Source: Rhabditoides inermis (taxonomy: Eukaryota; Nematoda; Chromadorea; Rhabditida; Rhabditidae). From it: a stretch of 64,000 nt of DNA. This document shows, piece after piece, positions 13,334-58,290 of the stretch (positions are counted from its first letter, which is position 1; each line of letters starts with the position of its first letter). The stretch lies in the NCBI GenBank assembly GCA_963966185.1, contig CAWZYM010000102.1, forward strand, positions 444,501 through 508,500. The letters are read 5' to 3'. A program made the position numbers and the translations under genes. The notes beneath the pieces are model-generated. The model was not told the origin of the DNA, did no database searches, and saw only the letters and a program-made list of their open reading frames with translations.

Positions 13334-13507
13334 GAGACGGTGAAGGAGACGCGCGAAATCAGTGAGTGCTGTTCTCCTTTACTTTGTATTTCTGTAGTGG
13401 TGGTCTGAATCAGTGGAATCAGCGGAATTCCACCCGCAAGATATGGGGCGCGATGTTTTTTGACGCATTAACCGTGGTCATGTTCACAGTCGGCATTTTT
13501 TCTCCTA

Positions 13508-13660
13508 TCTTAATTCTTAGGGGACGATGCAGGTCAAATCATTCTCCTACCGTGATTCTAAGAGGACGATGCTGGTCAAATTATTCTTCTACCGTAATTC
13601 TAAGGGGACGATGTAGGTCGAATCATTCTCCTACCGTGATTCTAAGGGGACGATGCATCA
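13508..13660. repeat. 42 bp tandem repeat, ~3.5 copies
   Basis: Units starting attct(t/a)agg at 13513, 13555, 13597 and 13639 have a 42 bp period. Each contains ggacgatg and tcattctcctaccgt. 42 is a multiple of three, so it gives a repetitive open frame, but I see no gene around it. Confidence 0.9.
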
Positions 13661-31308: not shown

Positions 31309-31317
31309 GGGTTTATC
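31309..31317. repeat. Left 9 bp target-site duplication of the MULE
   Basis: gggtttatc here pairs with atgtttatc at 40488-40496; 7 of 9 bases match. 8-10 bp duplications are typical of Mutator-like elements. Confidence 0.75.
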
Positions 31318-31359
31318 CCCTACCGGACACTCTGAGTTTGCGGACACTCTGCGCACCGG
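31318..31359. repeat. Left terminal inverted repeat of the MULE
   Basis: 42 bp beginning CCCTACCGGACACTCTGAG is identical to the reverse complement of 40446-40487. The core word gcggacactctgcgca is repeated as subterminal copies at about 31384-31399 and 31433-31448. Confidence 0.95.
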
Positions 31360-31922
31360 TGATAGGGGATAAAATCATGCGGACACTCTGCGCACCAAAA
31401 AGGAAAACTAGTGGTTTTGAGTGAAAAACGCGCGGACACTCTGCGCACACTGGGTTTTAAACTAATGGTTTGACCTATTGATAAAACCGTATACATTATT
31501 GTTTCTCAGCGTCGCCGGTCGAAGCGGCAGAATACTGTTAATAGTTTTATTGTTATTATTATTATTATTATTATTGTAATCACAAGGCATATTGTTCTTC
31601 AAATTATCTTGATTCGAGACTATCAATATTTATATTGGGTAGCTCATTTACCGTAATATATTAATTTCGGCCACACGGACGGTACGAAAGTGTTTGTATT
31701 TATATTCTGTATAAGTTGTTAGGTATTTTCCGTAAAAGTTTTTTGGTTTACTATTATTATTTACAGTACTGTAAGGCTCGGTCTGGCAGCGCCTTGGAGC
31801 CGAGACAGACGTTGTCTCCCAGGTCATGCAGACTCGTGAGTTCGCCTTGTTTTTACAATCTAACTATTTCATATAACGCCATAATAATACAAAGTTCTTG
31901 AAACAAATTCGAAATGATGCAG

Positions 31923-32190
31923 TGAACCGCTTCATCGCGACGGACTGCCTGCCGCACTTGTTGTTCTACGGGCCGCCGGGTACGGGAAAAAACGAGAACG
32001 ATTTCTGCGGCGGCGCGCACAATGTACAACGACAAGCTCCAACTAAACGCCAGGAACGACAGGGGTAGGTTTTGGCGGTGTTGTAACTCATGTTGTTGTT
32101 TATGCATTCCATGTTCACTAGGTATGTGAGAAGGAGAGTCTTTCTATGACGGAGGACGGCAAGCAAGCACTGCTCCCTGTTTCTCTTCCA
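31923..32190 (+). pseudogene. Captured RFC small-subunit (clamp loader) fragment
   Basis: After a cag acceptor, NRFIATDCLPHLLFYGPPGTGK matches the Walker A region of replication factor C small subunits, RFC5 type. The frame then breaks by small indels (the expected AAARTMYNDKLQLNA is recoverable from another frame) and ends at a donor near 32065. A second exon at 32122-32180 (EKESLSMTEDGKQALL) matches the later sensor/helical part of the same family. The exons between are absent and a stop follows. This is a spliced-out, decayed host-gene piece inside the MULE. Confidence 0.72.
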
Positions 32191-32214
32191 AGCGTTTGAC
32201 ACAATGTTGTAGGG

Positions 32215-33019
32215 CAACACGTCGCCTGGCGAGTCTGACCGGAAGGCGCACCACTTCCCGGGGCTGATAATTGAAGGAGAGCTCATTGCTCTCTCGGATA
32301 TCATTGCCAATGCCGTGACCACACATATCACCGCCATTATACAGGTAATTCACATTATTAAATACATAAACAGAAATGCTACTGGGTGAGCGTGAATGCG
32401 ACAACCCTGTGCGTCGGTGGCTCAATGTGCGAGTTGGAGAGAGTGGAGGTGCGGGGTGCGAGCGTCGCTCTCTCCACTATCCTCACCGCCACACATGTAC
32501 ATGCCGACTGCAAGTGGCTCACCATCGACACTCACATTCGCGCACATACACTTTCCATCAAGGTGTGCCTGCATGTCGGTTGTCTATGTAATCAGCACTG
32601 TTCAGGCGCACGCTCTCCTCCTTCGTTCTGTCTGCTCCTTCTCCACCTGCTCCATCGAGTGCCTCGGCCTGATGCTGCTGACGGGTAGCCTGGAGGGCAA
32701 GGCGGCAGTCACTGCTCCCTTCGTTGACGCACCTGGCACACTGCCGAGTGACTGCGACCTGACTGCACTTATCGCGTTCTGCTGCTCCCCCCTCTCATCA
32801 TCCAATGTCTACTTGTGGATGGATGGTAGTGGAGCGGGAGAGGCGATGTCGGCTGGGGATGGGGAGCACTGGTCCGAGATCGCCGCCCTAGTCAAGGATA
32901 AATTCCCCTCGCACTCTGTCGACCCATTCGAGACTTTTTTCTGGTGCTCTCTCGCACAAGCAGGTGCCGGAGAAGTTCAATGTCGAATGAGATGCTCGAA
33001 TGTTGTATATGCGATCTAG
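32215..33019 (+). CDS. Exon group of unknown function inside the MULE
   Basis: Three blocks with good splice signals stay open in one frame. 32213-32344 reads HHFPGLIIEGELIALSD to the ITAIIQ donor. About 32370-32560 reads VSVNATTLCVGG to HTLSIK. 32606-33019 reads HALLLRSVCSFSTCSIECLG to the TAG. The protein is hydrophobic and Cys/Ser-rich and no family is recognised. No start codon is assigned. It could be another captured host fragment or a second MULE gene. Confidence 0.4.
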
Positions 33020-33206
33020 TGATAAGATCGCTTTCTATTTGTTGTTCTATAGATTGTTGTTGTATTTGAAACATTTACATTGAATATAACATAAATATGA
33101 ATGATGGTTTGTCTTATCTTTTTGGATTTTACTGATATGCGTTCGTTGACGCTTCCTTTTTGGAATACCTACACCTTGGGTTGATGAATGTTGTAAATTT
33201 ATTTAG

Positions 33207-36200
33207 ATGGATGTTGATGTAAAAGAAGGTGGACAAGATCAAGAGGGGTTGCGTCGCTCGAGACGCGTACGGGAACCGTCGTACAAGGTGTGTTTGAGTA
33301 TGAATGATTATATGTGTGGTGTCTGTACTTACAGTTCCTGGAAAACATCGCAGACGTGTGCCAACCCAAGCAGAAAAGAGCAAAGAAGTCAGCAAAAAAG
33401 GTATTTATTGTAAATATTATTCACGATTGGCATGTTCTCATTACCACATCATTACCATCACCGCCATTTACATTTGAGAGTGGACAGCCTCCCATCTACG
33501 CTGGTCCTCCATCCGCAGCACAGGCTGAAGGGGAGTTGCCTTCTACCGGTCCCGTCGCGGGCGCAGCCCTCGTGGAGGAAGAGCTTCCCGCCCACGACGA
33601 CCAGGAAGCTGCCAAGTTTGTAAGTCACATTTATATTACATATGATGATCGCAATGATATATCGTTCAGCGAAGGGATTTGCCTTCTGCCGAGGAGAGTC
33701 CAGTCGCCGGCGCAGCCCTCGTGGAGGAAGAGCTTCCCGCCCACGACGACCAGGAAGCTGCCGAGTTTGTAAGTCACATTTATATTACATATGAACAATG
33801 ATATATCGTTCAGCGAAGGGATTTGCCTTCTGCCGAGGAGAGTCCAGTCGCCGGCGCAGCACTCGTGGAGGAAGAGCTTCCCGCCCACGACGACCAGGAA
33901 GCTGCCGAGTTTGTAAGTCACATTTATATTACATATGAACAATGATATATCGTTCAGCGAAGGGATTTGCCTTCTGCCGAGGAGAGTCCAGTCGCCGGCG
34001 CAGCACTCGTGGAGGAAGAGCTTCCCGCCCACGACGACCAGGAAGCTGCCGAGTTTGTAAGTCACATTTATATTACATATGAACAATGATATATCGTTCA
34101 GCGAAGGGATTTGCCTTCTGCCGAGGAGAGTCCAGTCGCCGGCGCAGCCCTCGTGGAGGAAGAGCTTCCCGCCCACGACGACCAGGAAGCTGCCAAGTTT
34201 GTAAGTCACATTTATATTACATATGAACAATGATATATCGTTCAGCGAAGGGATTTGCCTTCTGCCGAGGAGAGTCCAGTCGCCGGCGCAGCACTCGTGG
34301 AGGAAGAGCTTCCCGCCCACGACGACCAGGAAGCTGCCAAGTTTGTAAGTCACATTTATATTACATATGATGATCGCAATGATATATCGTTCAGCGAAGG
34401 GATTTGCCTTCTGCCGAGGAGAGTCCAGTCGCCGGCGCAGCCCTCGTGGAGGAAGAGCTTCCCGCCCACGACGACCAGGAAGCTGCCGAGTTTGTATGTC
34501 ACATTTATATTACATATGAACAATGATATATCGTTCAGCCGGATCGAGTGCAACGACGAAAGCCAAGAAGAATGAAGAAAGAGAATTCGGAAACAAAGAA
34601 CAAAGATGCTTCCAACGAGACCAAAATGAACTCACCAACTATTCATTCGGTTCAAGGTGGTCTGTGTTTCAAGATCGGCGTCTACAAATACACCGTGAGT
34701 ACTATTCGCTTGTTACGGCGTTGCTTATTTGGTTCAATAATTTCTCATTTTTTCAGGTGTGGGACCATGTTGAGGCCAAGAACTACATTCTTCGAGCAAT
34801 GCGGCAAGCTGGTGTTCAAGTTGGAGCAGAAGGAGAAGAAGAGCAGCGCGATGAAGATCTTTTTGTTGATGCAATCCAGTTTGATGATAAGGACCAAGGA
34901 GTACATGGCAAGCCGTTTCCAGTAAATAGTGCCCCGGCTGGATCGCGTCATTCTGTAGGTACGTTAGTTATTTTAAAACATATTTTGTTATGCGTGTACG
35001 CTTTAGATACACGAATCGATGCGGTGTTGATGAAGTATCTCAAGCCCCCTCCCAAGAAGGGAGACGACGGCAGTCTCCACTGGTTGTTTTTTTAAAATGT
35101 ATTATTATAGTCATATATATCGTTCAGGACCTTCTCGTCCAATGGTAGAGTTCACCTGTACGAGGAAGGGAGGCGATACAAAGTTGATCAGAAGATATTG
35201 AGGTAAACGTCCTTAATTGATAACTTTGCATCGTTTTCATTGTAGTTCGACTATACGTTTTGGATGTGTTCAGCCAGGATGTGCAGGGAGGTTGTTCATA
35301 CAACCTCAAAAGAACGACGACGGGGAGATCAAAGTGGTGGTTATCAAGAGACTCAACCATACCTGTGATGAGGAGCACAAGTACGGGGAAGCAAGGGTGA
35401 GTGTTGCTAGGATATGAACAATATTTTCTGGTCGTTTATAATGCATTTGTAGGAAGCCTTCGCTTGTGGAGTTGTCAGACGATTGGCAGGAGAGGCGATT
35501 GATACGGAAACGTGCTACTCCATATATCTGGAGATGACGGAAGGGCTATCGTGTCGGAAGAAAGAAGAGACTGCTCTCCGAAGGTATGGCAAATACATTT
35601 TACTGTTTTAATTTTTTACAGCATCCGGCGGTGGCGATCAAGGAAAGTGAGCCGTGCTTCCAAGTTGGATCCCAGCCTGTTCACGATCGATGGTATTTGA
35701 ATAAATGGTTGTTTTTTATTCATAAACTTCAGGAGAGTCGATATTGTTGTATGATGGGTGGAACGAAGAGGACTCGGCGTTGCGGTTCATATTCCTCGGC
35801 ACTCGGTCGGGATTGGAGCGTCTGGCAGTCTGCCTGCGTGTCTACATCGATGGCACTTACGCAAGCAGACCAGAAGACTCGGCACAAGTGTTCAGGATAA
35901 TGCCTGACGTAAGTGACAGATAAAGTATCAGTTGTTATTATTTCATGTGTTCATAGGATCCTGATGGTGGTGATGGAGTCGTCGTTGTGATGTCATCTCA
36001 TTCTCTTCGCGCGTATTTCGCAGTCTGGGCAGTCCTTCGCAGGCTCATGGGCGAACAGTGGTGTGGATTCAAGCAAGTCGTTATGGGTCAGTTACTTCCT
36101 AGTATTCTGTTTTCATAATGTTTTGGTTGTAGATCTGGAGGCGGCTTCTCTCAACGCGGTACGTATGCACTTCCCTTCCGCAGATGTCGTATTGTGTTAC

Positions 36201-37811
36201 TTCCATCTGCGTAGCGCCTGGCGTCTGCAATGGCGTAAAAAAAGGGGTGAGTGACAATTTGTAATTAGATTGCATTATGATGTCAGGAAGCGATTCTATG
36301 ACACCGGAGCTGGACACCTTCCTACTTGGTTGTACCGGACTTCCATTTCTTCCCCACGACCGAGTCTCGAAGGCGTTTGACGAGCTGTCTGACGCCCTTC
36401 CCTCAGCTCCCGCCAACGATCGTGAGTGGAGAATGCTATTGAATGCGAACTATCTATTACATGTTTGTGCTGTAGGCATCCGCGCGTACATGTACAAGAT
36501 GTACTGCGGCACCTCTGCGATGTTCTCTCCGAAGGATTGGTCACACTTCGACAGGATAGCTCAAGGACAGCCCATAACCAACAATCGGCTAGAAGGTATC
36601 CACAAAAATCTGAAGGTACTATTTGTTGCACATTTTGATTAAGATTAACTGTTTAAATTCAGTTGAAGTACGGGGTCCGCACCAACCTGACCAAATGGAT
36701 GTGGTTGCACAGGCGCCGGTGTCATATGCAGGTGCGTCGAACTGCCGCAATTCGGGGAGATCCATTCTACATTCGACAGAAGACGCAGGTAAAATTCATT
36801 CTAACTTTTCAGTCATGTCATAATGTTCAGCGTGGTCTTCACAGAGATGGCGCCTTTCGAGCGGCAGTGCTTCTGGAGGGAGACGAATCGGACGGACAAC
36901 GGGCTCTGCGTATCGGAAGATATCTGAAGGTATTTGATGTTAACATAAACATATCAATGTGTATGTTTTAGGCTCGCAAGCTCGGATCTACTTCTCTCCA
37001 GAAGAAGAAGTGTGATGATACGACTTATAAGAAGAAGAAGAAGAAGTCGGCTACGGAGAAGAAGAAGAAGAAGACGGCTTCGGAGAAGAAGATGAAGAAG
37101 CCGGCTTCGGAGAAGAAGATGAAGAAGCCGGCTACGGAGAAGAAGAAGAGGAAGGCTGTTGCGGCGTGGAAGGAGGACTCTGCGGCCCTGGAGAACAAGG
37201 ACGCGAAGTCTGCATCGCCGGAAGAGGAGGCTGTTGCGGCGTGGAAGGAGGACTCTGCGGCCCTGGAGAACAAGGACGCGAAGTCTGCATTGCCGGAAGA
37301 GGAGGCTGTTGCGGCGTGGAAGGAGGACTCTGCGGCCCTGGAGAACAAGGACGCGAAGTCTGCATTGCCGGAAGAGGAGGCTGTTGCGGCGTGGAAGGAG
37401 GACTCTGCGGCCCTGGAGAACAAGGACGCGAAGTCTGCATTGCCGGAAGAGGAGGCTGTTGCGGCGTGGAAGGAGGACTCTGCGGCCCTGGAGAACAAGG
37501 ACGCGAAGTCTGCATCGCCGGAAGAGGAGGCTGTTGCGGCGTGGAAGGAGGACTCTGCGGCCCTGGAGAACAAGGACGCGAAGTCTGCATCGCCGGAAGA
37601 GGAGGCTGCTGCGGTGTGGGAGGAGGACCCGCGTGATGCGAGGGAGGAGGACACGTGGAAGGTAGCCTTTTTTCCACATAATTTCTCGTAACATGTCTCT
37701 CAGGTGTTTGCGCCCAGTTACATCAGCACCGCGGAGAACGTCTGGGAAAGTGGAGAGCACGGTTGGGAGGAATGGGTGGATGCGTACAAGCATGGCGATG
37801 GTATGCTGTAG
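33207..37811 (+). CDS. FLYWCH zinc-finger MULE transposase, ~1171 aa, 24 exons
   Basis: Exons: 33207-33287, 33335-33400, 33479-33619, six repeats (33670-34493), 34539-34694, 34757-34958, 35007-35082, 35128-35202, 35246-35396, 35453-35583, 35622-35692, 35733-35908, 35957-36086, 36133-36246, 36287-36615, 36663-36788, 36831-36929, 36972-37661 and 37704-37811. Every phase matches and no stop interrupts. Order: basic N-terminus; acidic 33-aa repeats; FLYWCH-like finger (WTFSSNGRVHLYEEGRRYK, FGCVQPGCAGRLF, NHTC); MULE DDE domain with VYIDGTY (first Asp), VVMDLEAASLNAV (second Asp), CYFHLRSAW (CxxH-type motif) and ITNNRLEGIHKNLK; a Lys-rich linker; six 25-aa repeats; and a Trp-rich end. It would cut and join the 42 bp ends. 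The exon 3 acceptor and the donor at 35083 are the least certain joins. Confidence 0.85.
33670..34493 (+). repeat. Tandem exon-intron array (6 x 99 bp exon + 45-50 bp intron)
   Basis: Exons start at 33670, 33814, 33958, 34102, 34246 and 34395. Each is 99 bp, phase 0, and encodes RRDLPSAEESPVAGAALVEE then ELPAHDDQEAA(E/K)F. They are separated by nearly identical introns of 45 bp (the last is 50 bp). The end of exon 3 (33479-33619) matches the second half of the unit, and the intron before unit 1 is also the 50 bp type. The array adds 198 acidic residues. Confidence 0.95.
37150..37620 (+). repeat. 75 bp coding minisatellite, ~6 copies
   Basis: Units encode AVAAWKEDSAALENKDAKSA then (S/L)PEEE, 25 residues each, within exon 23 of the transposase. 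Units differ mostly by tcg/ttg. The 75 bp length keeps the frame. All three forward frames and the reverse frames are open here, which gives misleading long frames on both strands. Confidence 0.95.
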
Positions 37812-39120
37812 ATTTTGCGTACGTGTGCGAATGTGCATATTCTATATATCAGTTTGTTATACCTTTTACATACATACCCATTTGTAGAATTTTGTAGAAA
37901 TATTGATTTATATATAGCTTTTTGTAGATGTTTATTCATAGAAATCAAGATTGTTACTGTTGATGTAAAGTAAGTTTTCCGAATCGATTCATTTTATATA
38001 TACGGTTTATATACATATTATACTGCATAATTTACAGGTTACAGATGTTCATTTATTGTTATTCTACTTAATTGTTAATATTAATAAAACATTGTTACAG
38101 ACATTGTCAAAACCGGTTGTGCGAGAGCTTCATTACATATCCTGCCAACAATTTCAATTGGGTGTAAGATGCATAGTTCAGAGTTCAGAGTTTTATCCGG
38201 AATCGTTATATCTGTACATGACATTGCAATCACAACAATATGAATGGAAGCATGCAGTAGGGCCAAGATCTTTGTAGGCTAACGCCGGGGGAATACAGTT
38301 TAGCAATCAAGGTTAGTGGTGAACGACGCACCGCACAGCGCCGACCGCACAGCGCGGGTAAAGAAAAAAATAAGATGCATAGTATCGATCACAATGTCAC
38401 TCATACTAGTAAACTGTCAGAACACACCTGCTTTCCCGACTCGTGAGTGTTCAGTGTCCGGAATGATGAAGGAAATGCACGTTCAGAATCGTGATGGAAA
38501 CGGCATAGCGTCGCAGCAAGAGCCGCTCGCTGGTGATTGTTAACGAGTTCGGGATATATGACAGTGAGAGAGTGAGAGGAGAGAAAGAGGGGCTGAAGTG
38601 GTGAAACATGTAATCGCAGGTGGTGAGTCTGTTTGCGTCTTGCCTAAATTGCTACACCGCCAACATGAATCACGCCGCCGTTATTGTGCTCAATCCTTTC
38701 GCCCAGTCCGCGCGCAATAGAGGCGAGCACGGATATGAGGATTAAAAAACGTAGTTGTATTTCTGCAACACGCAGGGTATGGATCTTTTCACTTCCCCAA
38801 CATCTCGTAAGATCATGAATCAGTATCTACTTCTAATGAGAACAACAACAAAACACTAACAATTCATGTAGCAAAAACTATGCATTATGCCACCGAATCA
38901 ATCACCCCAGCTGGAGGCTACATAGCACTCTCATCTGACGAGTGAAAGAAGCGGGGACACAAACACCCCAATCGCATCCATGTAATCTAATATTCCACTG
39001 CAACAATACAAATCGTGTCGCCTAAATCATAATCACCTCGATCAATTCGATTCTATGAATAAGTATTCAGATCAACCAGAAAAATGAGCACATTTCAAAC
39101 AAAGATAAACATAAACTCCC
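37812..39120. other. MULE right arm, non-coding part
   Basis: AT-rich after the transposase stop. AATAAA occurs at about 38090. No further gene seen until the NASP-like fragment. Confidence 0.5.
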
Positions 39121-39129
39121 AACAGTACT

Positions 39130-40010
39130 TTTCTCGGGAGCCTTGCCGAACTCGTCTAGCGTTAAGGAGCGGGCCATCGTAAAGTACGCCCGTGCCAGAA
39201 AACAGTCAGAAACCTCAATGTTCCTCTGCAGAGTCAGAGAAGCCTCCAGGTCGTCAATAGCCTGAACACAATTGCACAGTGTTTATAATATTAAAAATAA
39301 TACAAACGTTTTATAGAGAAACAACCAGTAACAAAATACAAATTACAAAAAAACCCACAAATGAGTTCGTCCGCCTCGAGAATGTTCTTCTTCATATTAT
39401 TCGAGACGTCATCGTCGACGAGAGCCATCTCCAGCAGCGTCTGGAACGCCTTCACGCCGCACTGACCGTACACCTCCACACTGAAACAAAAATAATTACA
39501 AATCAATAATGACGAAACATCGTTGTAGATGACGTCACGATCAATCTTAACTCATATTCTAAAATACAAACGTACAAACCCTTCTAATACAAACCCTTGT
39601 CAGCCTCCTCGGTGGTGATGGTGATGGTGGTGGCCTCTCTCTCCTTCGTCTGCTCGGTCTTCTCCTCCTCCTTAGTCTCAGCCGTCTCCTCCTCAGTCTC
39701 GGGGGTGACCTCGGTCGTCTCTCCCTCCTTGGCCTCCTTCTCCTCCGCCTTCTTGTCCTGCTCCTTGGCGTTCTTGTAAGCTCAAACGTCACGTTGTCGG
39801 CAATGTCGGCGCGCCCCACTTCTGAAAATATTCAATAAACCGATAATTAGTAATAATGAGCATAACTTGATACAAAAACTACCAATAACAAAATACCAAT
39901 TACCAAAAAAACCCACAAATAAGTCCGTCCGCCTCGAGACGTCATCGTCGACGAGAGCCGTCTCCGGTGCACTCTCCGAGTTTGTCGGCGGCCTCGTCGA
40001 AATTGAGATG
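39130..40010 (-). pseudogene. Captured NASP-like (histone chaperone) fragment
   Basis: Minus-strand blocks in order are NFDEAADKLGEC, VYGQCGVKAFQTLLEMALVD, an acidic Glu/Lys/Thr stretch (TPETEEETAETKEEEKTE) and AIDDLEASLTLQRNIEVSD then ARAYFTMARSL. NASP/SHNi-TPR proteins have the same order: a TPR half, an acidic insertion, then more TPRs. The segment around 39380-39450 is partly repeated at 39920-39970 with deletions, and stops interrupt it, so it is decayed. The family call rests on short blocks and could be wrong. Confidence 0.45.
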
Positions 40011-40263
40011 TAGTCGCGCCTTCCGACCGAGAACAGATGCTTGATAAAAATAAAATCTAATTTAAAATCTAGGATAAGATTTTCATCCGTTTATTGAGAA
40101 AATCATGACATATTATTATTATTATTATTATTATACACTATAATGATGAACTTCACAATGAATTATTCGGTGAAATTAATATTCAATTCATCAATATCGC
40201 GAAACAACAACATCAACATAACTTAAAATCAATCAAAATGTCCTAACGAATCCAAAAAAAAAC

Positions 40264-40496
40264 ATGTTTGCGCAGGGTCTTTACAAATGTTTTCATGTGT
40301 CGCGCTCTATTGATAAATTATCATTGGGTCAGATAGGGTGTGCGCAGAATGTCCGCCCATTTGGCCAGTTCGCGCATGTGCGCAGATTGTCCGTGCGCAG
40401 ATTGTCCGCAAAATGGAGACTCGCGCGAGCGAGTGACAAGATTAGCCGGTGCGCAGAGTGTCCGCAAACTCAGAGTGTCCGGTAGGGATGTTTATC
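40264..40496. repeat. Right terminal inverted repeat, subterminal repeats and TSD of the MULE
   Basis: The terminal 42 bp is 40446-40487 and the target-site copy is 40488-40496. Upstream, gtgcgcaga(a/t)tgtccg occurs at about 40340, 40378 and 40392 in the same orientation as the terminal copy. Confidence 0.93.
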
Positions 40497-48204: not shown

Positions 48205-48535
48205 TTATACGTGGCAGACCCGAAACACACAATGACACAACGCGTAATACGGCAAAACAGAGTATATTTATCGTAGGAAGAGTGCATGATTGCGAAAACC
48301 AGAAGGAGTTGACGCTGGAGGATTCGGTGGGAGCATATATACGGTCGATAGGTGGCGTGATGGGCGAGGGAAGGGCGCCGAGGAGATCGCCGGGCCTGGA
48401 ATGACAACACATTAGGGCCCGTTTCCAAAAGGAGAGATAGTGAGGGGTGAGAGATGAGGAGTGATATTGAAAGTGGTGTGGGAAGTGGTCTAATTGAGTG
48501 AGTGTTGATTGGTTGATCGATAGGTGGCGTGATGA
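48205..48535. repeat. Repeated 330 bp block, copy 1
   Basis: Starts ttatacgtggcagacccgaa and ends gataggtggcgtgatgactg. Near-identical copies lie at about 55648-55980 and 60238-60550. No coding signature recognised. Confidence 0.85.
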
Positions 48536-48537
48536 CT

Positions 48538-48820
48538 GTCAATAAACTGTTAACAAACTGTCAACAAACTGTCAACAAACTGTCAACCAACTGTCAACAA
48601 ACTGTTGACAAACTGTCAACAAACTGTCAACAAACTGTCAACAAACTGTCAACAAACTGTCAACAAACTGTTAACAAACTGTTAACAAACTGTCAACAAA
48701 CTGTCAACAAACTGTTAACAAACTGTTAACAAACTGTCAACAAACTGTTAACAAACTGTCTTGGTTATAAACTGTTAACAAACTGTCAACAAACTTTTAA
48801 CAAACTTTTAACAAACTGTG
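48538..48820. repeat. 11 bp minisatellite, array 1
   Basis: Tandem aacaaactgtc / aacaaactgtt units (11 bp) with occasional aactttt and ataaactg variants, ending directly at a retrotransposon fragment. Confidence 0.97.
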
Positions 48821-49804
48821 GAGGAGTGTGGAGGAGGAGTGGAGCTGCACCCGACAGGACGGAAAGTCACCGACCTCGACTACGCGGATGACATCGCTCT
48901 GCTGGGAGAAGACCCTGTTAGCCTGCAGAAAGCCGTCGACCGTCTCAGTCTCTTTGCCGCCTCGTACGGTCTGACCCTCAGGCCGGACAAGTGCGAGTCG
49001 ATGACCATCCCGCGAGGAGTAAAGGAGGACTGCACTGTCAATGGAGAGAAGATCGCGCAGAACAACATCTCCCGCTACCTCGATTCGTGGATTAGCAGCG
49101 ACGCCGACCTTACTAAGGATGTGGAGGCGCGAATCGCCCAAGCCTGCTCCGCGTTCAATTCGATGGAAAAGGTTTTGTGGAGATCGAGCGTCGCCAATCA
49201 CGTCAAACTGCGGATCTACCTCACCGCCATCCGACCTGCGATGCTCTACGGATCCGGCACTTGGGCTCTCAATAAGAAGCTCGAGGAGAATCTGGATACG
49301 GCGGAACGCAAATTCTTGCGCCGGATGCTAGGCTACTTCTACCCAAACCGTCGCCACAACTCGCAGTTGTATCGGGATGTAAACAACATCTACTCCCGTC
49401 TCCTGCGCAAAAAGTCCAAGCTGCCCACCCTCTCGCGGCAAGTGGCGGCAACGAGAGTTCGTCTCTTGGGACACGTGCTGCGACGAGAAGACCATTGGAT
49501 TTTGAAGCAAGCTGCGCTCACACTACCGCCGCCGGAGTGGAGACGAGGCCCAGGAAGGAAACGCGCCACATGGGACGAGAAGCTGAAGGAGGATGTCGGG
49601 CCCACGCCTGCCGTGCGTGCCAAAGTTACTTCGAGAGACACTTCGTTCCGCAGAGCTTGGAACACTCGCAACGGGCAGTGGATGGACGCTGTTATGGACA
49701 TGGCACAAGACCGCGTCAAGTGGTCAGAACTGGTTCACACGATGCTCGCCGGCTAAGGAGTGACAACGCTCCAGATGATCTACGGAGAATCGGCCGAGAA
49801 GTGA
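48818..49804 (+). pseudogene. 3' fragment of a non-LTR retrotransposon, copy 1
   Basis: Open frame from 48818 to TAA at 49754-49756 (312 aa) starts inside the RT palm just before DLDYADDIALL. It includes the thumb (PDKCESMTIPRG) and a C-terminal domain (KLRIYLTAIRPAMLYGSGTW, LLGHVLRREDHW, GPGRKRATWDEKLKED). It ends in a (GTGA)n tail, as RTE/CR1-type elements often do. There is no endonuclease or 5' RT, so it is not autonomous. Confidence 0.88.
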
Positions 49805-50546
49805 GTGAGTGAGTGAGTAATAATAATAATGGTTTATCCATAGGTGCAGACAAAACACAAACACAATATACAAACTTGGGGCGGAATGTACAAAGGTTTA
49901 GTGTTTTGTCCCCGGATGGGTCCTTGGAGGGTATTGCTCCCTATAGCAAAGCCTCATCCGGTGGGTAGCATCTTTTGAGAATCTTCTTTCTTCTTCCATA
50001 TAGAGTATGCGGCCTTGATCCATCCTCGAACGCGTGAGCCTTATGGACCACGTTGCCTCTACCGTCGAACGTTATCGAACTTCTCGCGTCCATTAGCATA
50101 CTTGCTCCCGGTCGATCCATTCGTCACCATCATGTTGCGAAATCCAAGAAATCCGCGAGTTACCCACTAGTGCACTTCCAACAGGCTTATTTGGCTCCTC
50201 CTTATCGTCTCACAGTGAACGGCTCCAGATATCGATCGATAACAATGACGTACTTCTCTTCCGTTCGCGGGTGCCGCCGTAGCTCTTCAATTCGTTTTCG
50301 CTTTGTACCTTCTTTTCCTCCAATCGAGAATCCGCGCTTCGCCCACTAGTGCACTTCCAACAGGCTTATTTGGCGTCGCCTTATCGTCTCGCAGTGAACG
50401 GCCTCAATTCGAGAATCAGTCGATACTCCAAGAAACCTCATATCCAAGCGGCGGCGGCGGTGACTTTCATTGTCGTCGGGTGGTTATTCGAGGGAGCGCG
50501 GGAAGGGGCAACCGCTCGCGGGGACGGGAAAATGAGAAGTGAGTGA
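49805..50546. other. Unique sequence with a short internal duplication
   Basis: About 60 bp around cactagtgcacttccaacag (50166) recurs at 50347. No gene seen. Confidence 0.6.
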
Positions 50547-50968
50547 GTAACAAACTGTTAACGAACTGTTAACTGTTAACAAACTGTTAACAAACTGTCA
50601 ACAAACTGTTAACAAACAGTTCACAAACTATCTTTGTTATAAACTGTCAACAAACTGTCAACAAACTGTTAACAAACTGTCAACAAACTGTTAACAAACT
50701 CTTAACAAACAGTCAACAAACTGTTAACAAACTATCAACAAACTGTCAACAAACTGTCAACAAACTGTCGACAAACTGTCTTAGTTGTAAACTGTCAACA
50801 AACTCTCAACCAACTGTTAACAAACTGTCAACAAACTGTCAACAAACTGTCAACAAACTGTCAACAAACTGTCAACAAACTGTCAACAAACTGTCAACAA
50901 ACTGTCAACAAACTGTCAACAAACTGTCAACAAACTGTTAACAAACTGTCAACAAACTGTCAACAAAC
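50547..50968. repeat. 11 bp minisatellite, array 2
   Basis: Same aacaaactgt(c/t) unit with interspersed ttagttgtaaactgt and ctttgttataaactgt variants. Confidence 0.97.
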
Positions 50969-50969
50969 T

Positions 50970-51963
50970 GTGGAGGAGTGTGGAGGAGGAGTGGAGCTGC
51001 ACCCGACAGGACGGAAAGTCACCGACCTCGACTACGCGGATGACATCGCTCTGCTGAGAGAAGACCCTGTTAGCCTGCAGAAAGCCGTCGACCGTCTCAG
51101 TCTCTTTGCCGCCTCGTACTGTCTGACCCTCAGGCCGGACAAGTGCGAGTCGATGACCATCCCGCGAGGAGTAAAGGAGGACTGCACTGTCAATGGAGAG
51201 AAGATCGCGCAGAACAACATCTCCCGCTACCTCGATTCGTGGATTAGCAGCGACGCCGACCTTACTAAGGATGTGGAGGCGCGAATCGCCCAAGCCTGCT
51301 CCGCGTTCAATTCGATGAAAAAGGTTTTGTGGAGATCGAGCGTCGCCAATCACGTCAAACTGCGGATCTACCTCACCGCCATCCGACCTGCGATGCTCTA
51401 CGGATCCGGCACTTGGGCTCTCAATAAGAAGCTTGAGGAGAATCTGGATACGGCGGAACGCAAATTCTTGCGCCGGATGCTAGGCTACTTCTACCCAAAC
51501 CGTCGCCACAACTCGCAGTTGTATCGGGATGTAAACAACATCTACTCCCGTCTCCTGCGCAAAAAGTCCAAGCTGCCCACCCTCTCGCGGCAAGTGGCGG
51601 CAACGAGAGTTCGTCTCTTGGGACACGTGCTGCGACGAGAAGACCATTGGATTTTGAAGCAAGCTGCGCTCACACTACCGCCGCCGGAGTGGAGACGAGG
51701 CCCAGGAAGGAAACGCGCCACATGGGGACATGGGACGAGAAGCTGAAGGAGGATGTCGGGCCCACGCCTGCCGTGCGTGCCAAAGTTACTTCGAGAGACA
51801 CTTCGTTCCGCAGAGCTTGGAACACTCGCAACGGGCAGTGGATGGACGCTGTTATGGACATGGCACAAGACCGCGTCAAGTGGTCAGAACTGGTTCACAC
51901 GATGCTCGCCGGCTAAGGAGTGACAACGCTCCAGATGATCTACGGAGAATCGGCCGAGGAGTG
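50970..51963 (+). pseudogene. Non-LTR retrotransposon 3' fragment, copy 2
   Basis: As copy 1, but an 8 bp insertion at about 51725 (cacatggggacatggg) breaks the frame after 258 codons. A Gly-to-Arg change before EDPVSL and Glu-to-Lys in NSMKKV are shared with copy 3. Confidence 0.9.
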
Positions 51964-51978
51964 AGTGAGTGAGTGAGT

Positions 51979-52832
51979 GAGTAACAAACTGTTAACGAAC
52001 TGTTAACTGTTAACAAACTGTTAACAAACTGTCAACAAACTGTTAACAAACAGTTCACAAACTATCTTTGTTATAAACTGTCAACAAACTGTCAACAAAC
52101 TGTTAACAAACTGTCAACAAACTGTTAACAAACTGTCTTCGATATAAACTGTTAACAAACTGTTAACAAACTGTTAACAAACTCGTCAACAAACTGTCAA
52201 CAAACTGTCAACAAACTGTCAACAAACTGTTAACAAACTGTCAACAAACTGTTAACAAACTGTCAACAAACTGTTAACAAACTGTCTTCGATATAAACTG
52301 TTAACAAACTGTTAACAAACTGTTAACAAACTCGTCAACAAACTGTCAACAAACTGTCAACAAACTGTCAACAAACTGTTAACAAACTGTCAACAAACTG
52401 TTAACAAACTGTCTTCGATATAAACTGTTAACAAACTGTTAACAAACTCTTAACAAACTCTTAACAAACTCTTAACAAACTGTCAACAAACTGTTAACAA
52501 ACTATCAACAAACTGTCAACAAACTGTCAACAAACTGTCGACAAACTGTCTTAGTTGTAAACTGTCAACAAACTCTCAACCAACTGTTAACAAACTGTCA
52601 ACAAACTGTCAACAAACTGTCAACAAACTGTCGACAAACTGTCTTAGTTGTAAACTGTCAACAAACTCTCAACCAACTGTTAACAAACTGTCAACAAACT
52701 GTCAACAAACTGTCAACAAACTGTCAACAAACTGTCAACAAACTGTCAACAAACTGTCAACAAACTGTCAACAAACTGTCAACAAACTGTCAACAAACTG
52801 TTAACAAACTGTCAACAAACTGTCAACAAACT
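51979..52832. repeat. 11 bp minisatellite, array 3
   Basis: About 850 bp, with higher-order structure: blocks ending gtcttcgatataaactgtt recur about every 150 bp. Confidence 0.97.
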
Positions 52833-53826
52833 GTGGAGGAGTGTGGAGGAGGAGTGGAGCTGCACCCGACAGGACGGAAAGTCACCGACCTCGACTACGC
52901 GGATGACATCGCTCTGCTGAGAGAAGACCCTGTTAGCCTGCAGAAAGCCGTCGACCGTCTCAGTCTCTTTGCCGCCTCGTACTGTCTGACCCTCAGGCCG
53001 GACAAGTGCGAGTCGATGACCATCCCGCGAGGAGTAAAGGAGGACTGCACTGTCAATGGAGAGAAGATCGCGCAGAACAACATCTCCCGCTACCTCGATT
53101 CGTGGATTAGCAGCGACGCCGACCTTACTAAGGATGTGGAGGCGCGAATCGCCCAAGCCTGCTCCGCGTTCAATTCGATGAAAAAGGTTTTGTGGAGATC
53201 GAGCGTCGCCAATCACGTCAAACTGCGGATCTACCTCACCGCCATCCGACCTGCGATGCTCTACGGATCCGGCACTTGGGCTCTCAATAAGAAGCTTGAG
53301 GAGAATCTGGATACGGCGGAACGCAAATTCTTGCGCCGGATGCTAGGCTACTTCTACCCAAACCGTCGCCACAACTCGCAGTTGTATCGGGATGTAAACA
53401 ACATCTACTCCCGTCTCCTGCGCAAAAAGTCCAAGCTGCCCACCCTCTCGCGGCAAGTGGCGGCAACGAGAGTTCGTCTCTTGGGACACGTGCTGCGACG
53501 AGAAGACCATTGGATTTTGAAGCAAGCTGCGCTCACACTACCGCCGCCGGAGTGGAGACGAGGCCCAGGAAGGAAACGCGCCACATGGGGACATGGGACG
53601 AGAAGCTGAAGGAGGATGTCGGGCCCACGCCTGCCGTGCGTGCCAAAGTTACTTCGAGAGACACTTCGTTCCGCAGAGCTTGGAACACTCGCAACGGGCA
53701 GTGGATGGACGCTGTTATGGACATGGCACAAGACCGCGTCAAGTGGTCAGAACTGGTTCACACGATGCTCGCCGGCTAAGGAGTGACAACGCTCCAGATG
53801 ATCTACGGAGAATCGGCCGAGGAGTG
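52833..53826 (+). pseudogene. Non-LTR retrotransposon 3' fragment, copy 3
   Basis: Appears identical to copy 2, including its 8 bp insertion. The spacing of 1863 bp shows that fragment plus minisatellite was duplicated as one unit. Confidence 0.92.
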
Positions 53827-53842
53827 AGTGAGTGAGTGAGTG

Positions 53843-54535
53843 AGTAACAAACTGTTAACGAACTGTTAACTGTTAACAAACTGTTAACAAACTGTCAACA
53901 AACTGTTAACAAACAGTTCACAAACTATCTTTGTTATAAACTGTCAACAAACTGTCAACAAACTGTTAACAAACTGTCAACAAACTGTTAACAAACTGTC
54001 TTCGATATAAACTGTTAACAAACTGTTAACAAACTGTTAACAAACTCGTCAACAAACTGTCAACAAACTGTCAACAAACTGTCAACAAACTGTTAACAAA
54101 CTGTCAACAAACTGTTAACAAACTGTCAACAAACTGTTAACAAACTGTCTTCGATATAAACTGTTAACAAACTGTTAACAAACTGTTAACAAACTCGTCA
54201 ACAAACTGTCAACAAACTGTCAACAAACTGTCAACAAACTGTTAACAAACTGTCAACAAACTGTTAACAAACTGTCTTCGATATAAACTGTTAACAAACT
54301 GTTAACAAACTCTTAACAAACTCTTAACAAACTCTTAACAAACTGTCAACAAACTGTTAACAAACTATCAACAAACTGTCAACAAACTGTCAACAAACTG
54401 TCGACAAACTGTCTTAGTTGTAAACTGTCAACAAACTCTCAACCAACTGTTAACAAACTGTCAACAAACTGTTAACAAACAGTACACAAACTGTCTTTGT
54501 TATAAACTGTCAACAAACTGTTAACAAACTGTATA
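53843..54535. repeat. 11 bp minisatellite, array 4
   Basis: Same higher-order pattern as array 3, followed directly by MULE copy B. Confidence 0.97.
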
Positions 54536-54538
54536 TGG

Positions 54539-55320
54539 GTTCGATTTACACGGATGACCTGGCCGACTGCAAGTGTGTATGGGTTCGATTTACACGGATG
54601 ACCTGGCCGACTGCAAGTTCCTTATCGATTTCGAGTCTGCGCAAGCTAGTGCCATCAAGGCTGTATTCGGAAATGCGCAGGTACGTTAGTTAATTGTTGG
54701 TTAAACAGGGTTGTTTTAAAACACTGGCTTTAGATCCTGGGATGAGTGTTCCATTTTGCACAGGCGATCAACCGACAAGCCGTTCACTACCTCGGAAAGG
54801 TCAGTACTTAGGGGCACTACAATTATACGCGACTGTTTAGGAGGACGTGGACTCGGATCCAGTGATCAGCCAGTGGGTAAGACGAGTCGCGCAGCTGTGT
54901 TCTCTACTCGACAGCAGGTCATTCAGCACGGCGTCTTCAAGGTGCCCCTGGCCACGCTCAGTCGACTGCGCGGAGATGCCAAGAACTTCAGCGAGTACCT
55001 TCACAAAACGTGGCTCGAGCAGAAGGTACGCAGTGATGTAGTTTATCTCTAACTCTTCTTTTCATTTCAGCACTTCCGTAAGATGTGGTCGCACTACGAC
55101 AACTACAGGCACCGCACGACCAACATGTCAGAGGGGTACAACCGTCGTCTACGTCAGGCACTCAGTGAGTAGCCCCAAATACTCCAATACCAGGCCATGT
55201 TCTTTTAGAGTACAAGAAGCCCTCCATCGACGACTTGATGAGGTTCCTCCGCGCAGAGGTTCTCAACGTGTTCAAGCAGTCCTCAGGCTGGCTGCACCGC
55301 CATGTAATCGTTTAGAGAAG
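54539..55320 (+). pseudogene. Second MULE transposase, copy B (C-terminal part)
   Basis: Starts at the second catalytic block (ADCKFLIDFESAQA), preceded by a 44 bp direct duplication at 54536-54619. It has the same TGA in place of the GCxFH Cys. Unlike copies A and C it keeps the C-terminal exons: NFSEYLHKTWLEQK, HFRKMWSHYDNYRHRTTNMS, EGYNRRLRQAL and KPSIDDLMRFLRAEVLNVF, a typical MULE end. Confidence 0.78.
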
Positions 55321-55499
55321 AGTTTGAATCAAAATCAGGTTAAGTGGTGCCGATTTGGTAGCTTGTTTAGATGGGTCGCCATAAAAGCGAACACACAAAA
55401 TGTGCGTGACAGTGTCGAGTGTCCCTCTTTTTTATGGTTGGGCAGTAAGTATAATAATTTCCGAGATGAGCATAGTCTGAGTTAGTGCTAGTCGTGTGA

Positions 55500-55620
55500 T
55501 ATGGTAAAACTGTTAACACATTCTTAACAACGTGTTAACAGTTTGTTAAAAGTTTGTTAACAGTTGACATATTGTTAACAGTTTGTTAACAATTTGTTAA
55601 CATTATTAACTCATACCGCC
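55500..55620. repeat. Inverted orientation minisatellite patch
   Basis: gttaacagtttgttaac units are the reverse complement of the 11 bp minisatellite seen elsewhere in the region. Confidence 0.85.
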
Positions 55621-55647
55621 ACCTGGTCAAGGTGGACAGCAGAAGAG

Positions 55648-55980
55648 TTATATGTGGCAGACCCGAAACACACAATGACACAACGCGTAATACGGCAAAA
55701 CAGAGTATATTTATCGTAGGAAGAGTGCATGATTGCGAAAACCAGAAGGAGTTGACGCTGGAGGATTCGGTGGGAGCATATATACGGTCGATAGGTGGCG
55801 TGATGGGCGAGGGAAGGGCGCCGAGGAGATCGCCGGGCCTGGAATGACAACACATTAGGGCCCGTTTCCAAAAGGAGAGATAGTGAGGGGTGAGAGATGA
55901 GGAGTGATATTGAAAGTGGTGTGGGAAGTGGTCTAATTGAGTGAGTGTTGATTGGTTGATCGATAGGTGGCGTGATGACT
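55648..55980. repeat. Repeated 330 bp block, copy 2
   Basis: Near-identical to 48205-48535, including the following minisatellite start. Confidence 0.88.
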
Positions 55981-56258
55981 GTCAACAAACTGTTAACAAA
56001 CTGTCAACAAACTGTCAACAAACTGTCAACCAACTGTCAACAAACTGTTGACAAACTGTCAACAAACTGTCAACAAACTGTCAACAAACTGTCAACAAAC
56101 TGTCAACAAACTGTTAACAAACTGTTAACAAACTGTCAACAAACTGTCAACAAACTGTCAACAAACTGTTAACAAACTGTCAACAAACTGTTAACAAACT
56201 GTCTTTGTTATAAACTGTTAACAAACTGTCAACAAACTTTTAACAAAATTTTAACAAA
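55978..56258. repeat. 11 bp minisatellite, array 5
   Basis: aacaaactgt(c/t) array, nearly the same order of variants as array 1. Confidence 0.97.
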
Positions 56259-57044
56259 CTGTGGAGGAGTGTGGAGGAGGAGTGGAGCTGCACCCGACAG
56301 GACGGAAAGTCACCGACCTCGACTACGCGGATGACATCGCTCTGCTGGGAGAAGACCCTGTTAGCCTGCAGAAAGCCGTCGACCGTCTCAGTCTCTTTGC
56401 CGCCTCGTACGGTCTGACCCTCAGGCCGGACAAGTGCGAGTCGATGACCATCCCGCGAGGAGTAAAGGAGGACTGCACTGTCAATGGAGAGAAGATCGCG
56501 CAGAACAACATCTTCCGCTACCTCGACTAGCGCTCCGGCGCGCTGTCGCGCGCCTCCGCGCTAGAACATGAAAATTAGAAGAATAGAAATTCATACAAGT
56601 TTTTGGTTATGTTCAATACTACTGTTTATCCACAAATTCATAACATTTTGACGAGTGAAACGAATTATTAACGTAAAGAAGATTAGTCGATTGATGTATT
56701 GATTGCACTGATAAGTATGTTGTCTAGGAGCGGGGTAATAATAATAATAACAATAATAACTGGTTTGCAAGTCCTATAGTAAGCTGCCGCGCGCTTCACC
56801 TATCAATGTCTATGAAAAGAATAATGATATATTTCTTTTTTTCTGAACTGTACTTTTCTATGCTCCCAAAAACTAAATGCGCTCAGGCACAAGTCAGCAT
56901 CGCTCTGATATTAGCCCTCCTCCTTCTATCTCTCCCTCTTTCTCCCCTCTCTTCTCGCTCTCTCCTTCCTCTCTTTATCTCCCTGCTTTCTCTTTATTAT
57001 TTTTTTCGTTTTTCTTCCAGTGTTAAAGACACAGTGGCGACTTA

Positions 57045-57190
57045 TTTCTGTCACAACCTGCCACAACTCATCATTTTCACACGAGCAAAACATTTGGCCG
57101 TGGGATCGAACCGGCGAAGATCGGGGGCCACAATGCAGCGCACATGCTCTGAGCCATGAAGCTATTGACTAAGCGTTGTTCAATTGCGCT
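57045..57190 (-). mobile_element. tRNA-derived SINE, second copy, inside the Helitron
   Basis: The reverse complement reads catggctcagagcatgtgcgc and ccggttcgatcccacgg, then the same tail as 19868-20050 (caaatgttttgctcgtgtg, agaaataagtcgccactg). Confidence 0.75.
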
Positions 57191-57679
57191 TATGTCTCCG
57201 ACCCCAATTTGCAGTATTGAAGCGTTGGCGGGAAATTCAAATTTTCATCTGAATCCTTGGCAGTGTCAGATTCGAAAGTAACGCAGAATCGTCGTTCTTT
57301 CGAAAAAAAAAATGCAAATGTGTTAGGTTAACATGGTTTTAAAAAAATACTACGTGTCAAATAAGTCGCCACTGTTCCTTTCATGCTACGAAAACAGACA
57401 GTTCTGCTTTTCTGCTTCTGCAACATCTTCCCCTCACTAATCTCTTTCTCTCTTTCTTTCTCTTTTTTATCTATCTCTTTTTCTTTTTCCCTCTCTTCCT
57501 CTTTCTCTTTCTCTCAGGTCTCCTCTCGCGCGTGCACCTTTTGATAAATTGGCTATATCTTTCTCACATTGTAACCACTCAGGTTGAATTTTACGGAAAA
57601 AAGGTACGGAAAAAAGCTGTTTTTTGAACGTAATTACGGAAAATAAAACAGAGATGTCTTTCTGCAAAGTTTCACGCGA

Positions 57680-58290
57680 ATCGATTCAGTAGAAACGGAG
57701 ATAATCTTGCGGACACACATGAAAAAGTGAAAAAGTGACCATTTTTGGTAGTATTTTGACCAAAAAGAGAGGTAATGAAAGCAAAATTGAGAACTGTCAC
57801 AGAATGGACTGCATCACAAGACATAAACTCAACTATCAGTCAAGTTTCTTGCAAATTGGTTTTGTATGAATCGAGTTATGACCGCGGAAATACTAAAAAT
57901 CGCAAAAGTGAGGCGAGAGCGCGCGCGCGGCTCTTGCTAATTTGGCTATATTTTCCTTACACCGTAACCAATGATGATGAAACTTGCAGGTTAGTGACAG
58001 AACTAATTGTTGAAAGTAATTACAGAACAAGAAGCGAAACTGTTTCTTAGGTGAGAAGCTTTTGCAGCGGACAGCACCAAAATCGGCGAATTTTGAGGTT
58101 TTTCTACCAAATATAGGCAATGAGTGTAATTGGAGAGTAATCACAAAGTGAACTGCATCCTGAAGTACTATGTAAACTTTTCGCAAAGTTTGACGCAAAT
58201 CGGTTCGGTAGAAACGGAGTTATGCCCGCGGACACACAAGAAAAAGTGCAAAAGTGACCATTTTTGGTGGTTTTTTGACCAAATATGGAC
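57680..58290. repeat. Internal direct repeat of the Helitron
   Basis: gcggacacaca-gaaaaagtg-aaaagtgaccatttttggt occurs at about 57710 and 58228, with the 30 bp before (aatcg-ttc-gtagaaacgga) also shared; offset is about 515 bp. Confidence 0.8.

Follow-up and report, generated by a model that had tools for sequence, protein, structure and literature searches.

A low-copy FLYWCH-MULE in the nematode Rhabditoides inermis with probable repeated capture of host gene fragments

The window analysed here, a 64-kb stretch of Rhabditoides inermis DNA, contains a complete 9.2-kb MULE (31318–40487). We consider it very probable that this element is a low-copy, structurally intact and recently mobile nematode FLYWCH-MULE, Phantom-like in architecture, that has captured host genes repeatedly. 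Pieces of four genes of the host lie within it: RFC5, NASP, dihydrolipoamide dehydrogenase (DLD) and an uncharacterised gene on C396. These captured genes are its most informative feature.

Results

Element ends and flanks

The element is bounded by 42-bp TIRs that are identical in inverted orientation at 42 of 42 positions (Table 1). The left end holds the subterminal 17-mer GCGGACACTCTGCGCAC three times without mismatch (31340, 31379 and 31432), and the right end holds it four times with at most three mismatches; with the same tolerance, it occurs nowhere else in the 64 kb. The flanks, GGGTTTATC and ATGTTTATC, agree at seven of nine positions, the seven being contiguous; under equal base frequencies, the chance of a match of at least 7/9 is 0.0013. 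The norm for MULEs is a target-site duplication of 8–11 bp, whereas the flanks of each full copy in this genome match at 7/9 despite perfect TIRs, which we count against our preferred explanation. An empty allele of the window insertion site was looked for and none was found, and an Rfam scan of the window gave no match. The identical ends, repeated subterminal word and 7/9 flanks reported in the first-pass annotation were all reproduced; together with the open spliced frame and domain matches described below, they support its assignment of a complete FLYWCH-MULE.

Table 1. Features of the element and its flanks (window positions)
Feature	Positions	Strand	Details
Left flank	31309..31317		GGGTTTATC; presumed target-site duplication copy
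Left TIR	31318..31359	+	42 bp
Subterminal repeats, left	31379..31448	+	two more exact GCGGACACTCTGCGCAC copies (31379, 31432)
DLD fragment (later piece in host)	31750..31804	+	87% to C236
RFC5 fragment	31821..32037	+	exon–intron–exon, P-loop region; 79% to C86, 77% to C529
RFC5 second fragment	32120..32176	+	84–86%
C396 gene fragment	32177..32293	+	97%
C396 gene second fragment	32296..32938	+	90% (31 mismatches and one 35-bp gap)
DLD fragment (earlier piece in host)	32941..32984	+	89% to C236
Transposase gene	33207..37811	+	25 exons, 1138 aa, open
Exon–intron tandem array	33670..34538	+	six units of 144 bp (one of 149 bp): exon 99 bp, intron 45–50 bp
FLYWCH-like finger	35128..35396	+	exons 13–14
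MULE DDE domain	35733..36615	+	exons 17–21; D606, D669, C690-x2-H693, E791
C-terminal coding repeat	37145..37628	+	75 bp (25 aa), 6.4 copies
High-copy genomic repeat	38172..38328		
NASP-like fragments	39131..40045	-	antisense, 69–91% to C292/C290; pieces 39131–39271, 39367–39546, 39626–39828, 39963–40045
Subterminal repeats, right	40340..40409	-	three degenerate GCGGACACTCTGCGCAC copies
Right TIR	40446..40487	-	42 bp
Right flank	40488..40496		ATGTTTATC; presumed target-site duplication copy, first two bases differ

Transposase gene

The exon model of the transposase was curated by hand with phase checked. Its spliced frame has a single terminal stop and 24 GT–AG introns of 38–123 bp. The open frame predicted earlier is correct; the predicted exon count of 24 is reached if the 123-bp intron 33401–33523 is read through, which keeps the frame open.

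Profile searches matched both PF10551 (MULE; E = 8e-5, 23.4 bits) and PF04500 (FLYWCH; E = 0.0028, 18.2 bits), but both scores lie under the Pfam gathering scores, 27.6 and 23.6, respectively. The PF04500 match was obtained only with a 68-aa stretch scanned in isolation, and the profile was not listed when a 542-aa stretch was scanned at E ≤ 10. The finger had been described as N-terminal: it does precede the catalytic domain, but it lies at about residues 424–491 of 1138, not at the N terminus of the protein. It reads LNH where relatives have HxH, and a PDB search with this stretch returned chance matches only (E of 0.66 and 0.89).

A protein search with the catalytic region gave four matches among 3719 candidates, of which, by Pfam, 4/4 contain PF10551 and 3/4 FLYWCH. 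When it was aligned with four MULE proteins (three FLYWCH-MULEs among them), 28 columns proved invariant across the five sequences, including the catalytic D, D, C-x2-H and E. With the 542-aa core as query, 7998 candidates were scored and none matched at E ≤ 1; with the transposase as query, tblastn found nothing in the fetched genomic stretches other than C401, which carries a second full copy.

Both coding repeats differ in number between the window element and C401: the 144-bp exon–intron unit is present in six copies versus one, and the 75-bp C-terminal repeat in 6.4 versus 4.4. In a nematode, an intron length near 45 bp is nothing out of the ordinary, and the repeated exon is present six times here against once in C401; the emphasis previously placed on 23 introns as unusual was overstated.

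Second full copy and recent movement

The second full copy (C401:387859–399589) lies at an unrelated locus. It has perfect 42-bp TIRs and flanks that agree at 7/9 positions, six of these contiguous, but a 1-bp deletion and an insert of 3 kb have left it broken. No empty allele for its site was found among the 40 of 841 candidates scored. With repeats excluded, the two copies differ at 28 of 5415 non-coding positions (~0.5%) and at 5 of 2311 exon positions; the repeat arrays (8/288, 2/153 and 9/484 differences) were left out because copies there cannot be paired surely. These are the only two near-identical loci of the element in the genome. Two near-identical full copies at unrelated loci indicate that the family moved recently, in line with the recent activity suggested in the first-pass annotation. 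The comparison by dN/dS gave no sign of constraint (one synonymous and four non-synonymous changes), and exons are only weakly less diverged than other sequence (P, one-sided, of 0.042 against all non-coding sequence and 0.056 against introns alone).

Single-ended copies and target sites

The TIR was found at 15 places in the genome. Four belong to the two complete elements and the other 11 lack a full partner, so that the refuting condition named in the first-pass annotation, ends occurring singly elsewhere, applies in part. In nine of the 11, however, the shared sequence continues beyond the 42-bp TIR into subterminal sequence. The place at C545:18191 (34 bp) duplicates one of these nine in tandem, and C65 shares 30 bp only. 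An end-like place in C367, with two mismatches, was left uncounted because a reversed control gave two matches.

Two of the single-ended copies, C301 and C363, have readable empty sites. C301 carries 264 bp of the right end, 98.9% identical to the window end, with a 6-bp duplication and empty paralogues (L057–L059). C363 carries 325 bp (99.4%), with a duplication of up to 5 bp, empty paralogues (L060–L062) and filler that repeats adjacent element sequence; a 10-bp copy of its flank further in was rejected as a duplication, since the empty paralogues carry it too. Both copies resemble one-sided repair products. They are the two resolved among nine independent one-ended copies, and the repair mechanism proposed below is based on them; at the other seven, no duplication was found at the inner end of homology. 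Flank suffixes of 6–8 bp recur inside C480, C127, C138, C141, C12, C545 and C65 (in C141 as 8-mers 2.5 and 4.8 kb in), none of them at the inner end of homology. A search for partner ends of the single-ended copies gave just a 10-bp end in C127, with flanks lacking a clear duplication.

Ordinary decay, in which full elements with perfect 9-bp duplications later lost one end by deletion, would account for the 11 of 15 places without a full partner. It also suits C127, C12, C138, C141 and C545, which are only 71–89% alike and are therefore older. By contrast, C301 and C363 are young, as judged from their near-identity to the window end, and a deletion would have had to end inside the far target duplication twice, sparing 6 and up to 5 bp. 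We regard decay as a rather unlikely origin of the single ends and altered flanks, and for the single ends favour repair that stopped early.

Counting the duplicated ends in C12 and in C545 a single time, we find GGG in the flank, at positions −9 to −7 from the TIR, at 5 of 13 ends (nominal P = 2e-7), in both full copies on the left side only. As the pattern was picked after looking, a GGG target preference is a lead only.

Captured host gene fragments

The parent genes were named as RFC5 (E = 8.9e-67), NASP (1.3e-15; SHNi-TPR 2.3e-11) and DLD (1.3e-50). C396 is a putative gene, read from open frames; it has no Pfam match, and its shared sequence is matched only by C396 itself, the window and C401. 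The possibility that C396 is another copy of this transposon was rejected on account of these few matches and because its open frames extend past the shared part. In the C396 parent the two pieces are separated by 2.1 kb, partly a copy of the high-copy repeat listed in Table 1, and the two DLD pieces stand in the element in reversed order relative to the C236 host gene. As read from the frames, the pieces from RFC5 and C396 still contain introns, and a retrocopy origin was rejected for this reason. No clear microhomology was seen at the capture junctions. Short matches of the RFC5 P-loop to C149 (41 bp) and of the NASP region to C398 (48 bp) were dropped. The first-pass annotation had missed the captured fragments. 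With the RFC5 piece frameshifted, they look like decayed cargo, not functional genes.

An ordinary intact FLYWCH-MULE might instead have gathered host scraps locus by locus, through end joining or insertions unrelated to one another, with no Pack-MULE-type capture. The pieces are indeed short, those of RFC5 and NASP are diverged (about 69–91%) and the RFC5 piece is frameshifted. However, both full copies, at unrelated loci, contain the same left passenger block, and over 1888 aligned bases of the left side they differ at only 9, which indicates that the block moved with the element. Moreover, C480, C138 and C141 have NASP pieces in their right arms, and C127 has a weak match (71 bp, 72%, E = 3e-4), so that these pieces predate the two full copies. 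Independent acquisition at each locus is therefore very improbable, and we retain repeated capture by the element. The C127 relative (760 bp) matches the left end at 84%, followed by the 5′ region of the transposase at 71%; this region comes after 228 bp, versus 1466 in the window element, and no match to the left passenger block was found.

Least probable is that the transposase has been domesticated as an immobile host gene, which the presence of only two near-identical loci and the weakly lower exon divergence might suggest, but against which stand the perfect TIRs, the flank duplication, a second locus with both ends and the breakage of that second copy.

Discussion

In the mechanism that we propose, the transposase would excise the element at its TIRs and subterminal repeats, and the element would be reinserted through a staggered cut of about 9 bp. 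Excision breaks would be repaired by copying an element-bearing template; a template switch during this copying could capture the RFC5, C396, DLD and NASP pieces, and an early stop could leave one-ended copies.

Judged from sequence, the element looks autonomous and Pack-MULE-like at once; given the open transposase within it, it is Pack-MULE-like rather than a classical Pack-MULE. Pack-MULEs are mostly non-autonomous. Those of plants are likewise TIR elements with DNA-level fragments of unlinked host genes (PMC8277862, in part), whereas here the cargo adjoins an open transposase and the host is an animal. Animal Pack-TIRs are also TIR transposons with host sequence, for which gap filling and template switching have been invoked, but they are mainly hAT and Tc/mariner; the relevant part of the same survey, of 100 animal genomes, states that its reference genomes yielded no Pack-MULE (PMC8277862).

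The portion of the report on Tm1-A, a Meloidogyne FLYWCH-MULE of the Phantom subclass, that is drawn on here describes a similar element: the host is a nematode, FLYWCH is followed by a MULE domain, the transposase gene contains introns, motifs recur within the ends, each isolate has one autonomous element, duplications of 9 bp occur in the family, and the FLYWCH likewise lacks one ligand histidine (PMC3169594). Compared by description only, Tm1-A differs in its size (2.5 kb, 496 aa, predicted seven exons), and that portion reports no host coding-gene fragments; Tm1-HH elements carry a histone hairpin, likened by the authors to Pack-MULE acquisition (PMC3169594). Phantom MULEs, as covered in part of a second source, include members with FLYWCH and aphid members with a minisatellite after the transposase frame, with 8–10-bp duplications where given (PMC6446971); here the repeats lie inside the coding frame, one being an exon–intron unit, and the element is Phantom-like by architecture. 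Turmoil-1 of C. elegans, according to the section cited, is another DNA transposon of a nematode that encodes a transposase and has captured two fragments of host genes, but it belongs to the Harbinger superfamily and holds these fragments within its 760-bp TIRs (PMC2572040). Mutator-like elements have been reported, in the section cited, to be numerous in Caenorhabditis (PMC10015627).

Tentatively, FLYWCH-MULEs of this nematode lineage might shuffle genes as plant Pack-MULEs do, acting as autonomous engine and carrier, building chimeras of unlinked genes by template-switching gap repair and leaving one-ended 0.3-kb footprints as an abortive by-product. The exon–intron tandem array is a recent case in which protein length was altered by whole exon–intron units. 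In plants, MULEs that capture genes are known to generate chimeric sequence; in animals, capture by MULEs is hardly recorded. With a young, autonomous-looking carrier, the parent genes, a relative free of the block and one-ended copies all in one genome, the capture mechanism becomes directly testable in an animal.

Transposase gene and element ends

The element at window positions 31318–40487 holds a transposase gene (33207–37811), which was modelled by hand as 25 exons encoding 1138 residues, with one stop, at the terminus. All 24 introns are bounded by GT–AG; 22 of them are 38–56 bp in length, one is 62 bp and one is 123 bp. The first-pass annotation had counted 24 exons, a number that is recovered by reading through the 123-bp intron, which leaves the frame open; the curated model has 25. 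Both profiles that the annotation proposed as a check do match, but below their cut-offs: PF10551 in the catalytic region (E 8e-5, 23.4 bits against 27.6), and FLYWCH (PF04500) only in the stretch of exons 13–14 scanned alone (E 0.0028, 18.2 bits against 23.6), no FLYWCH match being listed in the Pfam scan of the 542-residue transposase core. A protein search with the catalytic region alone returned four proteins (E 5.8e-12 to 0.016), the weakest of which, from Brachionus calyciflorus, is the sole named one; PF10551 is present in all four and FLYWCH also in three. When these four are aligned with the window transposase, the D of IDGT, that of DLEAA, C-YF-H-L and N-x2-E-x2-H are among the columns that do not vary across the five proteins. 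The catalytic residues of the window transposase are D606, D669, C690, H693 and E791; the invariant D, D, C/H and E columns bear out the MULE DDE motifs recognized earlier. The FLYWCH stretch reads LNH where the relatives show HxH, and therefore one ligand may be missing.

As the first pass had described, the terminal inverted repeats (TIRs) are 42 bp long and identical (42/42), and a subterminal word is repeated inside each end of the element: a 17-mer with three exact copies inside the left end and four copies, with up to three mismatches, inside the right, and none elsewhere in the 64-kb window. A 42-bp tandem repeat at 13500–13657 contains CTCCTACCGTAATTCTAAG, which resembles the opening bases of the MULE end (CCTACCG), and comparable words are found in a stretch of contig C65 as well. 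The element lies between two frames, a plus-strand one that stops 136 bp to its left and a minus-strand one about 60 bp to its right, which we read as host genes. The minus-strand frame, coiled-coil-like by sub-cutoff Pfam matches only, has two paralogues (96%). Elsewhere, an 11-bp satellite (ACTGTCAACAA) forms several blocks within 48535–59764, and a 44-bp pair present at both 54530 and 59762 suggests that about 5 kb was segmentally duplicated.

Captured host gene pieces

The left arm of the element (31750–32984) is a mosaic of host gene pieces, and the right arm carries others in antisense. Comparison of host exons with protein structures identified the parent genes as RFC5 (8.9e-67), NASP (1.3e-15; Pfam SHNi-TPR, 2.3e-11) and dihydrolipoyl dehydrogenase, DLD (1.3e-50). 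For host RFC5, the best 7 of 120 listed matches are all from nematodes (Ostertagia, Ancylostoma (twice), Parelaphostrongylus, Haemonchus, Nippostrongylus and Auanema), at 63–65% identity, which places the host among the nematodes. The frames on contig C396 have no Pfam match, and we read them as one multi-exon gene; the 2.1 kb that separates its two pieces there may be partly an insertion, since part of it is a copy of the high-copy repeat that also lies within the element at 38172–38328. A 2231-base query holding this repeat gave 953 first-look candidates, of which 40 were scored.

Introns are present within the RFC5 and C396 pieces, which argues for capture from DNA. Compared with the host gene on C236, the DLD pieces stand in the opposite order. 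Divergence from the parents ranges from about 5% for the longer C396 piece, leaving out its gap, to roughly 9–31% for the RFC5, DLD and NASP pieces, and this inequality suggests several capture events.

Captured pieces in the window element and inserts in the second full copy
Feature	Position	Location	Basis or content
DLD piece	31750–31804	left arm	DNA match to C236
RFC5 pieces	31821–32037, 32120–32176	left arm	DNA match to host RFC5 gene
C396 gene pieces	32177–32293, 32296–32938	left arm	DNA match to C396
Second DLD piece	32941–32984	left arm	DNA match to C236
NASP-like pieces		right arm, antisense	DNA match to C292/C290
3.07-kb insert	C401:393758–396824 (L023)	exon 11 of second copy	integrase-like frame
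390-bp insert	C401:389425–389815 (L023)	near right end of second copy	inverted ends TAGGGATGTC / GACATCCCTA

A second full copy

The genome (172.6 Mb, 599 contigs; the window lies on contig C102) was searched with a 27-bp end at ≤3 mismatches, which found 15 places; an 18-bp core recovered all of these and added one at chance level. The search for further ends with 9-bp flanks, as the first pass had proposed, did yield a second full copy, C401:387859–399589, which has perfect TIRs and flanks that are 7/9 alike (CTACAGTTC / CTACAGCCC), but only 4 of the 15 places make up the two complete elements, and the other 11 are without a full partner. The window element is flanked by GGGTTTATC and ATGTTTATC, the right differing from the left by GG to AT next to the right TIR; in C401, two of the first three bases are changed (window orientation). 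This mismatch beside the right TIR is common to both copies despite their perfect TIRs and young age, and simple mutation at that rate is an unlikely source. GGG at −9 to −7 outside the TIR, seen at 5/13 ends, may reflect a target preference.

Outside repeats, the two copies differ at 5/2311 exon and 28/5415 non-coding bases. The C401 copy is broken by the loss of one base from an A run of exon 19 (possibly a sequencing slip), one extra base, as aligned, in the C-terminal repeat and two inserts. The larger, judged by its translation, is probably an LTR-retrotransposon remnant; the smaller sits between copies of GGCATAAT and looks like a small element nested with an 8-bp duplication, which we take to be hAT-like. 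A six-frame genome search found no further near-identical transposase, and relatives at 60–80% on contig C112 and at 34–58% on 13 further contigs. Those on C112 lie in 2.4-kb tandem units (C112:157181–162494), and no 18-bp end was found on that contig.

Exons 4–9 of the window element are six near-identical 99-bp exons, each with its own intron, in a 144-bp tandem unit (149 bp in one case), which explains part of the high exon count; C401 has one copy. A 75-bp C-terminal coding repeat is present in 6.4 copies in the window element and 4.4 in C401. Both arrays were altered recently, since the two elements are only ~0.5% apart, and the near-identity of the units suggests that the change may have been an expansion in the window element. 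Each unit, once spliced, has a length divisible by three, and the reading frame therefore survives.

One-ended copies

Since C12 and C545 each contribute a duplicated pair, the 11 unpartnered ends amount to nine independent cases, one of which is a C127 relative with a 10-bp end. On C545, both halves of a ~6.3-kb tandem duplication (18191 and 24465) carry one and the same MULE end with its flank; in the first half, the part of the end that is shared is only 34 bp long.

Two one-ended copies, C301 and C363, lie within host repeats, and the empty site can be read in other members of those repeats. At C301, the right-end sequence spans 264 bp (98.9%); after it come GACTC and a repeat of TGGGAG, the hexamer directly preceding the TIR. 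The empty paralogues L057–L059 (3/3) read ATATGGGAGGTCCCC, as does L064. At C363, 325 bp of end (99.4%) are followed by filler copying adjacent element sequence (TTTCACCGA) and then by GAGAG, which repeats the five bases adjoining the TIR and whose first two bases could be filler; the empty paralogues are the same in 3/4 (L060–L062), and the fourth (L063) is one base off. At both sites the surviving duplication is what trimming back a 9-bp duplication from the broken end would leave, and in our reading both sites would represent one-sided gap repair after excision that was then abandoned. Alternatively, they could be one-ended insertions or later deletions; no duplication at the inner end of homology was seen in the other seven cases.

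The C127 relative, 760 bp in total, matches the left end of the window element (226/270) and reaches the transposase 5′ region (131/184) after 228 bp, compared with 1466 bp in the window element, with no match to the left captured block. It closes with a weak NASP-like stretch (51/71, E 3e-4) before the 10-bp TIR end. We infer that the NASP pieces were acquired before the left block, which would have been added in the lineage leading to the two full copies.

Relation to known elements

An animal survey (PMC8277862) describes MULEs as rare in its animals and reports not having identified any Pack-MULE in reference genomes; thousands of Mutator elements are reported in Caenorhabditis (PMC10015627), where the relevant passages cite gene acquisition and give no case. 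Among the papers listed, mainly non-subscription literature judged mostly by title and abstract, none reports a Pack-MULE of an animal that encodes a transposase itself. What is known is that nematodes harbour FLYWCH-MULEs, such as Tm1-A as described in PMC3169594, and that a nematode DNA transposon can capture genes, as described for Turmoil-1 (PMC2572040). The window element is, like Tm1-A, a FLYWCH-MULE in a nematode host and, like Turmoil-1, a nematode DNA transposon with host gene pieces, although Turmoil-1 is a Harbinger; the captured pieces of the window element stand beside its transposase, a combination for which the literature covered here gave no earlier report in an animal MULE.
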